Assembly (NCBI RefSeq): GCF_004134825.1
Contig: NZ_SDPN01000020.1
Location: 1-64,000, forward strand
Direction: 5' to 3'
Length of the DNA: 64,000 nucleotides
DNA from: Agromyces albus
GTDB lineage: Bacteria; Actinomycetota; Actinomycetes; Actinomycetales; Microbacteriaceae
Of this stretch, positions 56,937-59,057 are shown one piece after another (the stretch's first letter is position 1; every line of letters begins with the position of its first letter). The notes below the pieces were generated by a model. It did no database searches, was not told the origin of the DNA, and saw only the letters and a program-made list of their open reading frames with translations. The position numbers and the translations under genes were made by a program.

Positions 56937-57746
56937 CTACCTGTCCCGCCACTCGAACAACCCGATGCGACAGTATTCCCGGAAGCCGAGGCGGCGATAG
57001 ACCGGTTCGCCCATCATGGAAGCTGCGAGGACGCTGATGCGGTAGCCGAGCGCCCGTGCCTCGAGCAGCGGCGCCATGGTCAGGGCTGCGCCGATCCCCC
57101 GGTGCCGGGCTTCGGGCACCGTGAAGACGAAGTAGATGCCGGCCACGCGGGCACCGAGGAACAGGGTCGCCGTGGCGACCGGCTCGCCGTCGAGCCGGCC
57201 CAGATAGTGCCGCCACGAAACGTGTTCGAGGCCGAGCGTCGAAAAGATGGTCCCGACCCATGCCGCCTCCTTGGGACCTTCACCGAACCCCTTGCCAAGG
57301 GTTTCCACCCAGACCGCGAGGTCATCCTGCGTCCGGACTCGGCTGACCGCGAGGCCGGAGGGCAGCTGCAGGGGCCGGAGTCCCTGGAGGTCGACGGCCA
57401 TACCGATATCGTCGCCGGCATGAATGAAGCCGCGGTCCACCAGCCGGCGGCCGAGATCGACGGGGCTCATGCCCGGCCCCAGATGCCAGGTTCCCGGCAC
57501 ACGATGGGCCCGCATCGCGGCGAGAGACGCCGAGATCGCAGCATCGGCGCCGGTCGCATCGAGGTTCGCCCCAACCACGGCGTTGTGGTAGTCGATGGGC
57601 GAGCCGCCGATGGTCCAGCGGAGCTTGTCGTCGTCTCGCTCCTCACCGCCGCCGGCGCGACCCATGGTCATGAGGAATTCGGCGCCGTTCTCCTCGATGG
57701 CGTCGGCCAGCGCAGCAGCCGAGAAGTCATCTCGCACAACAGTCAT
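56937..57746 (-). CDS. GNAT-family acetyltransferase
   Basis: A 269-residue protein from ATG 57746 with GGGAGGG before it. The N-terminal half (about 1-130) is a region common to two-part GNAT proteins; the C-terminal half has the acetyl-CoA loop [20 protein letters not shown] near residue 215 and [20 protein letters not shown] at the end. The substrate is unknown. The gene sits between two copies of a 36-bp direct repeat and points away from the neighbouring aminotransferase-fold gene. Confidence 0.88.
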
Positions 57747-57792
57747 GGCTGCCCTCCCGGCAAACTCGCACGTCACCTCTCTATCACGCAGG

Positions 57793-57828
57793 TCGACTCT
57801 GGTGCAGGGCGCTCATCGGAGAGGAGAA
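57793..57828 (+). repeat. 36-bp direct repeat, copy 2
   Basis: The partner of the copy at 56896-56931, 897 bp away. Here it forms the 5' leader of the aminotransferase-fold gene and ends in GGAGAGGAGAA, just before an ATG at 57828-57830 that could be an alternative start. Confidence 0.9.
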
Positions 57829-57872
57829 TGGCGTCGTGGTCCGACGATGATGCGGGCCGACTGGAGGCTGTC

Positions 57873-59057
57873 ATGACGGTCCGCCCAGCGCGACTCGCAG
57901 AGGTCGCGGGATTCAGCATCGACAAGGTCGCGGCAGCGGCGGGTGACGATCCCGACGTCCTCCGACTCGAGAACCTCGACACCGACGCGCCGCCGCCCAG
58001 AGAGGCCGTCGAGGCGACGAAGGCTGCAGTCGGCGAGCTGACGGCCAACTCGTATCTGCCGTTCACGGGTCGTCGCGACCTCCGTCTGGCCGTGGCAGAT
58101 CGGGTGCGATCACGATCGGGTGTGGAATACGATCCCGACAGCGAGGTCGTGATCACCGCGAGCGATGGGGATGGCCTGCTCGACGCGCTGCTCGCCGTGA
58201 CCGACCACGGGGACGAAGTCATCATCACCGATCCGACCTACGCGGGGATCCTGAACCGCATCCTCCTCGCCGGGGCCCGGCCACGGGTGGTGCCGATCCG
58301 TGCCGTGGAGGGCGCGTGGCGGCTCGACCTCGACGAGCTCGCGGCGTCCGTCGGACCCGCCACGCGGGCGATCGTGTTGCAGAATCCGTCGATCCCGTCG
58401 GGATACCTGCTCACGGACGCCGAGTGGCGGGAGATCGCCCGCCTCTGCGTCGAGCACGATCTGTGGCTCATCTACTGGGCTCTGATGGAGGGAATCGTCT
58501 TCGACGACGGCGAGGTCATCCACCCCGCTTCGTACCCGGGCATGCGCGAACGCACCATCGTGGTCGGCACCGTCTCGCTGGAGCAGCGCATGATCGGATG
58601 GCGGATCGGATGGATGGTCGCCCCCGAGGCGGTCATGTCCGACCTCGCGGTCGTGCACATCTACAACGGCCTCGTTGCCGGCGGTTTCGCGCAGGCGGGT
58701 GCGCTCGCAGCGCTCACCGCCGCCGACGATGGTCTTGCCGGGTGTCTCGCCGAGTGGCAGCGCCGACGCGACACGGTCTGCGATCAGCTGCGAGGCTTGC
58801 CCATGCTCGCTGCAGCGGGCGGCTGGTCGCAGATCCTCGATTCACGCGCGCTCGGGGTCGAACCCGACGCGCTGTCGCATGCGCTCATTCGCCACCGCGT
58901 GGCTGCGACGCCCATGACCGGGTGGGGCGGGCCGATCGCCGACCGGCATCTGCGCCTGGTCTTCAGTCGTGAACCCGTGCCGCGCCTCGAGCAGCTCGGC
59001 GACCGATTCGCCATGGCGCTCGCCGACCTCGGGGTCACGTCGTGGAGGGTGCCCTGA
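57873..59057 (+). CDS. Aminotransferase class I/II-fold protein lacking PLP residues
   Basis: A 394-residue protein with recognisable fold-type I layout: YLPFTGRRDLRLAVADRV near residue 61, DEVIITDPTY near 114-123, and an R244 motif MIGWRIGWMVAP. Against aspartate aminotransferase, N194, D222, Y225 and K258 fall on I174, W202, M205 and L236; only R266 (R244) is kept, and the arginine in HLRLVFS near 361 is present. The only lysines are K18 and K50, so no PLP lysine can exist. Start ATG 57873 has GGAGG five bases upstream; an upstream ATG would add 15 residues. It is most likely a non-catalytic or PLP-independent member. Confidence 0.85.
   Translation: MTVRPARLAEVAGFSIDKVAAAAGDDPDVLRLENLDTDAPPPREAVEATKAAVGELTANSYLPFTGRRDLRLAVADRVRSRSGVEYDPDSEVVITASDGDGLLDALLAVTDHGDEVIITDPTYAGILNRILLAGARPRVVPIRAVEGAWRLDLDELAASVGPATRAIVLQNPSIPSGYLLTDAEWREIARLCVEHDLWLIYWALMEGIVFDDGEVIHPASYPGMRERTIVVGTVSLEQRMIGWRIGWMVAPEAVMSDLAVVHIYNGLVAGGFAQAGALAALTAADDGLAGCLAEWQRRRDTVCDQLRGLPMLAAAGGWSQILDSRALGVEPDALSHALIRHRVAATPMTGWGGPIADRHLRLVFSREPVPRLEQLGDRFAMALADLGVTSWRVP

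Follow-up and report, generated by a model that had tools for sequence, protein, structure and literature searches.

What becomes of an aminotransferase that has lost the lysine holding its cofactor? This question is raised by a gene in a 64,000-nucleotide stretch of DNA of the soil actinobacterium Agromyces albus (contig NZ_SDPN01000020.1, positions 1 to 64,000; hereafter the window). The gene, located at 57873..59057 on the + strand (394 codons and a stop), occupies in Agromyces a slot between acnA and dxs. An earlier reading made from the letters alone (the sequence-only reading) described its product as an aminotransferase-fold protein in which the whole pyridoxal 5'-phosphate (PLP) site had been erased, and which was selected for another role rather than decaying. 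Our best explanation, to which as a whole we give a probability of about 0.45, is that the gene product is a PLP-free pseudo-aminotransferase which has been maintained and in which the substrate side of the pocket is still in use. That the protein is maintained and is not a PLP enzyme is, taken by itself, highly probable.

The translated gene is an uninterrupted frame of 394 codons ending in a stop. It matches the Pfam family PF00155 (Aminotran_1_2) with 110.5 bits against a cut-off of 19.7, and 62 distinct sequences of solved structures at an expectation value (E) <= 0.001, the first being the Pyrococcus aminotransferase 1gd9 (4.6e-42), whose PLP site is complete. An AlphaFold2 model, built from an alignment of 51 rows (the window protein plus 50 relatives found in genome contigs), has a mean predicted local distance difference test score (pLDDT) of 92.7 and a predicted template modelling score (pTM) of 0.92. 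Foldseek again ranks 1gd9 first (template modelling score, TM, 0.91; root mean square deviation, rmsd, 2.2; 30% identity), and VIA-align superposes the two with Z 50.5 and rmsd 2.0 over 382 residues, with other class I aminotransferases tying. We are confident that 57873-59057 encodes a protein with the predicted fold of class I/II aminotransferases, in line with the intact fold-type I scaffold that the sequence-only reading had claimed. The pocket was compared through aligned positions only.

As a reference for the active site we used aspartate aminotransferase (AspAT), assigning what we take to be the equivalents, and the roles, of its Asn194, Asp222, Tyr225, Lys258, Arg266, Arg386 and Tyr70. 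Alignment to the solved structures 1gd9, 1dju and 2o0r places I174 on the asparagine of NPTG, W202 on the aspartate, M205 on the tyrosine and L236 on the PLP lysine, the very substitutions claimed before; R244 falls on an arginine in 1gd9 and 1dju, and on a lysine in 2o0r. Across the 51 rows N174, D202, Y205, S235, K236 and R244 are each conserved in at least 90%, and R361 is invariant. The changes at 174, 202, 205 and 236 are therefore real departures, since the residues at these positions are so widely conserved. K18 and K50 are the only lysines of the window protein, as had also been noted from its sequence, and no lysine aligns with the active site.

Are these departures confined to one genome? 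Among 60 Agromyces genomes we found nine matches at E <= 1e-60; eight have the altered site, namely the window's own copy and seven others whose identity to it is 69-91%, and the ninth, L004 (47%), carries the lysine and the aspartate. In wider samples, matches at E <= 1e-50 occurred in 3 of 398 genomes of the family, 9 of 394 of the class and 5 of 396 of the order, and matches at E <= 1e-60 in 3 of 296 genomes of the phylum, 2 of 149 in the family of the carrier genome G1037 and 3 of 66 in the class of the carrier genome G1340. These samples overlap, and the genus, family, class, order and phylum sets contain the window's own genome; the last four, in which 4 to 6 candidates were scored per genome, are samples of larger groups, so further carriers are possible. 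The wider samples yielded the other lysine-bearing relatives and two more altered members: L112 (65% identity), from a different family of the order, and L132 (56%), from a different class of the phylum. Altogether there are ten altered genomes (eight Agromyces, one of the other family, one of the other class) and 13 lysine-bearing ones. L036 (a 90% match) and L037 show the same identities as L003 and L032 and do not enter the counts a second time. None of the ten altered frames contains an internal stop, and all lack both the PLP lysine and the aspartate, a shared loss that exceeds chance.

At the former PLP contacts we compared ten altered and 12 lysine-bearing rows, with residue coordinates given on the + strand. 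L236 (58578..58580), in the place of the Schiff-base lysine Lys258, is Leu in four altered rows, Met in three, Cys in two and Ala in one, and Lys in 12/12 lysine-bearing rows. W202 (58476..58478), in the place of Asp222, which in a PLP-dependent aminotransferase faces the pyridine nitrogen, is Trp in nine altered rows and Leu in one, and Asp in all 12 lysine-bearing ones. I174 (58392..58394), equivalent to Asn194, is Phe in eight altered rows and Ile and Met in one each, and Met in 12/12 lysine-bearing rows; L204 (58482..58484) is Leu, Phe or Trp in four, four and two altered rows, and Ala in every lysine-bearing row. Residues 97-100 (SDGD; 58161..58172), the former phosphate loop, have become acidic, with Asp in eight and Glu in two altered rows at position 98 and Asp in nine and Glu in one at position 100, against Gly/Ala and Asn/Ser/Ala, respectively, in the 12 lysine-bearing rows. 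M205 (58485..58487), equivalent to Tyr225, is Met in 22/22 rows and is hence an older change.

The site is not erased as a whole, however. The lysine, aspartate, asparagine and tyrosine are gone, as the sequence-only reading held, but R244, Y61, Y123 and R361 remain. The phosphate-binding arginine (R244, 58602..58604; Arg266 in AspAT) and the arginine for the substrate carboxylate (R361, 58953..58955; Arg386) are both present in 10/10 altered rows, as are Y123 (58239..58241), presumably the counterpart of the residue stacked against the PLP ring, and W318 (58824..58826), which we place on the substrate side of the pocket from AspAT anatomy. Y61 (58053..58055), Tyr in eight altered rows and Trp in two, we take to be the counterpart of AspAT Tyr70, contributed to the site of the partner subunit.

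The lysine-bearing relatives allow the losses to be ordered. This set (L113, L105-L111, L103, L004, L104, L133 and L136) was counted in 12 rows, with L136 checked separately; L104, a contig-end fragment, was counted in the columns where it has letters. Its members in Actinomycetota are 45-54% identical to the window protein, of comparable length, with an RMIGWR/RLIGWR motif and with R361 wherever the row extends to it. Unlike the altered group, they keep Lys236, Asp202 and Ala204 (12 rows and L136) and a non-acidic phosphate loop. All 13 have Met at both the Asn194 and the Tyr225 positions; since these two losses are found in both groups, they are by parsimony older than those of Lys258 and Asp222. 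The asparagine and tyrosine losses thus do not belong to the same event, contrary to the idea that all key losses came together. The lysine-bearing proteins are in their own right an unusual group of PLP enzymes, and in the three members that we scanned no curated model reached its cut-off.

The altered proteins are related by common descent, and in a tree on all columns with six outgroup rows the ten lie on one side of a branch with support 99/97. In a second tree, made without the 14 key columns, with L136 included and with three rows as outgroup, the support was 82/83, and 92% of 200 bootstrap trees held the branch. A single origin of the altered group is therefore likely, although not certain; two independent losses, with L132 apart, are the less likely course. 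A lysine-poor, high-GC background does not account for the loss, because in 4 of 11 full-length lysine-bearing relatives (L105, L106, L109 and L004) the single lysine is the catalytic one, and the altered L112 has none. A substitute lysine elsewhere in the protein was also considered and ruled out, as no lysine is common to all ten altered proteins and L112 has zero.

Purifying selection acts on these genes. By the Nei-Gojobori method the ratio of nonsynonymous to synonymous substitution rates (dN/dS) is 0.14-0.24 in the six pairs among L001, L002, L003 and L031 and 0.17-0.18 in four pairs with L032. It rises up to 0.465 (L034-L132) in deep altered pairs that are nearly saturated, and is 0.155-0.258 in five lysine-bearing pairs. 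A decaying gene, a gene-prediction artefact or an assembly error might show the patchy distribution seen here; full frames in ten separate genomes, dN/dS far under 1 and a coherent fold make such an explanation very improbable. The same evidence, with relatives that share the losses and are intact, bears out the view that the protein is selected for another role.

The locus itself speaks to the same point. In Agromyces the gene adjoins dxs. Six of the eight carriers (the window's own genome, G020, G007, G079, G071 and G064) have it between dxs and acnA, convergent with acnA; the G078 copy is on an 8-kb contig and the G076 copy beside dxs, with acnA on another contig in both. We fetched 30 Agromyces loci around acnA (of 60 matches), and 25 of them lack the gene. 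In each of these 25 empty slots dxs starts downstream of acnA and tblastn found no remnant of the gene, which again argues against decay in place and indicates that the gene is an accessory insertion or has been cleanly lost.

To see which parts of the pocket are still constrained, we computed site rates separately for the 10 altered rows and for 11 lysine-bearing ones (excluding L104 and L136). The two lists of positions examined were compiled on the basis of AspAT anatomy once the alignment had been seen, so that the p-values are descriptive. In the lysine-bearing rows the cofactor-slot positions 98, 174, 202, 204 and 236 have rate percentiles of 52, 0, 12, 7 and 8 (slow as a set against the rest, p 0.007), and in the altered rows 53, 71, 67, 93 and 86. 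These shifts indicate that four of the five (174, 202, 204 and 236) have been released from constraint. In both groups the rates at ten substrate-side positions (37, 61, 64, 123, 244, 265, 318, 348, 351 and 361) fall below those of the remaining sites (Mann-Whitney p 0.0002 in lysine-bearing rows, 0.003 in altered rows). The two sides of the pocket are thus unequally constrained. The residue volumes, added up over eight selected positions of the slot, average 1274 cubic angstrom in the altered proteins (1221-1298) versus 1112 in the lysine-bearing ones (1064-1143). We read the slot as having been converted to what looks like protein core, beside a pocket that still appears constrained.

We propose that the ancestor still had the lysine and the aspartate, with Met already standing where AspAT has Asn194 and Tyr225, and that these last two PLP anchors were then lost. 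The pyridine slot would have been filled in three dimensions by large hydrophobic side chains (Trp202, Leu/Phe/Trp204, Phe/Ile/Met174 and Leu/Met/Cys/Ala236), the phosphate loop turned acidic, and the protein would not bind PLP in the cell. The substrate side (Tyr61, Tyr123, Arg244, Trp318 and Arg361) has been retained, and the protein, most likely a homodimer, may bind a ligand that is a small carboxylate or resembles an amino acid, held by R361 and the polar residues that are left. It would be a binding or regulatory protein and not a catalyst. Taken separately, a ligand-binding role has somewhat less than an even chance.

Apart from the way in which the position lists were made, several observations weigh against this proposal. 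Slot position 98 keeps its rate percentile (52 against 53), and in the altered rows the slot positions taken together do not evolve significantly faster than other sites (p 0.069). Y61, on the substrate side, is not slow there (percentile 75), and certain of the listed pocket positions may be structural instead. The gene is scattered, with 8 carriers among the 60 Agromyces genomes, and is lacking in G073, a near relative by acnA (96% over a 300-residue query), so it is dispensable. No conserved partner gene stands beside it in the carrier loci compared.

Two other roles for a maintained protein bear on the same pocket. One is a PLP-independent enzyme that would reuse the pocket, with the acids at 98 and 100, or Glu206, Glu237 and Arg361, as possible catalysts. 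Glu206 and Glu237 are each found in 10/10 altered rows, as are acids at 98 and at 100, and the slow substrate-side residues would suit such an enzyme; but the two glutamates are not new, being frequent in lysine-bearing rows as well (10/12 and 11/12), and no reaction or pathway is indicated, which leaves this reading unlikely. The other, which we consider less likely still, is a pure scaffold or moonlighting protein, binding for example protein or nucleic acid, whose pocket has no role. The slot positions do drift among hydrophobic residues as in a protein core, yet R244, Y123, W318 and R361 are fixed across ten genomes, one of them of another class. This retention of the substrate side would favour ligand binding over pure scaffolding.

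A further alternative is modelled on LCB1/SPTLC1, a protein of fold-type I: an inactive subunit paired with a live aminotransferase, to which it might donate interface residues or which it might regulate. According to PMC3794620, LCB1 of serine palmitoyltransferase is maintained without the PLP lysine and forms a heterodimer with LCB2. The retained partner-site residues (NSYLPF/NSWLPF motif) would fit a similar arrangement here. LCB1, however, is eukaryotic and has a live paralogous partner, whereas the carriers of the altered group have no close second copy: each of the ten has a single match at E <= 1e-60 (in G1037, among the 12 of 25 candidates scored), leaving room for a distant partner. 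The next matches in the window's own genome are distant (28-30% identity), and no partner gene is conserved alongside in Agromyces. With no close live copy seen in any carrier, a heterodimer of the LCB1/LCB2 type becomes less likely, and we regard this alternative as improbable, standing between the PLP-independent enzyme and the pure scaffold.

What might the pseudo-aminotransferase bind? Its leading NCBIfam models, PRK07777 (NF005855; 199.7 bits against a cut-off of 553) and GntC (NF041364; 191 against 415), both score well under their cut-offs. GntC, the (S)-gamma-hydroxy-L-arginine cyclodehydratase of guanitoxin, ranks first or second among the NCBIfam models for the window protein, the altered copy of G1340 and three lysine-bearing relatives; the capreomycidine synthase VioD (TIGR03947) appears, among the 25 models shown, for the three lysine-bearing relatives only. 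Both are PLP enzymes, which the altered proteins most probably are not, and a search of the open PubMed Central (PMC) literature returned no paper on GntC. In G1340 a same-strand run (L134:9080-12803, - strand) holds ddaH (dimethylargininase), rocD (ornithine aminotransferase), an F420-dependent PPOX oxidoreductase and then the lysine-less pseudo-aminotransferase.

We surveyed ddaH and rocD in 30 genomes: the 10 carriers, and 20 chosen from the 52 Agromyces genomes without the gene (non-carriers). ddaH is present in 9/10 carriers (8/8 in Agromyces) and 14/20 non-carriers, and rocD, at E <= 1e-100, in 9/10 carriers (8/8 in Agromyces, where the G079 copy appears only below the cut-off) and 11/20 non-carriers; the remaining carrier, G1037, has neither. 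A link to arginine catabolism is only a lead, because G1037 lacks both genes and the Agromyces rows are not independent. One could go further and picture a bacterial fold-type I lineage in which PLP has been replaced by the protein's own Trp, Phe and Leu side chains around an acidic phosphate cup, forming a PLP-free receptor or enzyme whose ligand is perhaps arginine- or ornithine-like, since GntC, one of the two nearest curated models, acts on hydroxyarginine and the G1340 run contains ddaH and rocD. We consider this fuller picture unlikely.

To our knowledge, pseudoenzymes of PLP folds without the lysine come mainly from eukaryotes (LCB1). We found no description of the altered bacterial lineage in the open PMC literature, to which subscription papers do not belong. 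Yeast ScAlt2 is, according to PMC5960717, a retained aminotransferase paralogue that has lost alanine transaminase activity and kept its PLP site, whereas the altered group has lost the lysine and the aspartate. Dead relatives of PLP enzymes are a known kind.

Several related species have probably kept the altered protein for a job different from that of a PLP enzyme. Together with its relatives it forms a bacterial ladder, from a complete site through a lysine-bearing form without the Asn and Tyr to a form without Lys and Asp and with bulky side chains in the slot. The members are near enough for side-by-side alignment and expression, which makes the shift of a cofactor-dependent fold to a cofactor-free job testable. 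A homology-based aminotransferase name for the altered protein would mislead metabolic models.

Around the gene, a GNAT-domain gene with a weak Pfam match (56937-57776, - strand) is divergent from it. We considered this gene as a co-conserved partner and rejected it, for at E <= 1e-20 just two of the 60 Agromyces genomes have it (G020 and that of the window); it is an accessory gene occupying the same slot. Copies in other families have differing neighbour genes. Gene calling at these loci was crude, with an antisense frame called in place of the gene in several, and positions were taken from searches. Against PHROG the protein has a single match, phrog_5879, of unknown function.

The start site is marked by GGAGG (57863..57867, + strand), which resembles a ribosome-binding site and lies 5 nt 5' of the ATG at 57873. 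Starting instead from an ATG in the same frame at 57828 would lengthen the protein by 15 codons, but L035 lacks that ATG. The stretch between the two (57828-57872, + strand), which is GGAGGAGAATG-like and carries this in-frame ATG, is alike in most Agromyces orthologues, and the ATG at 57828 could be an alternative start in certain species.
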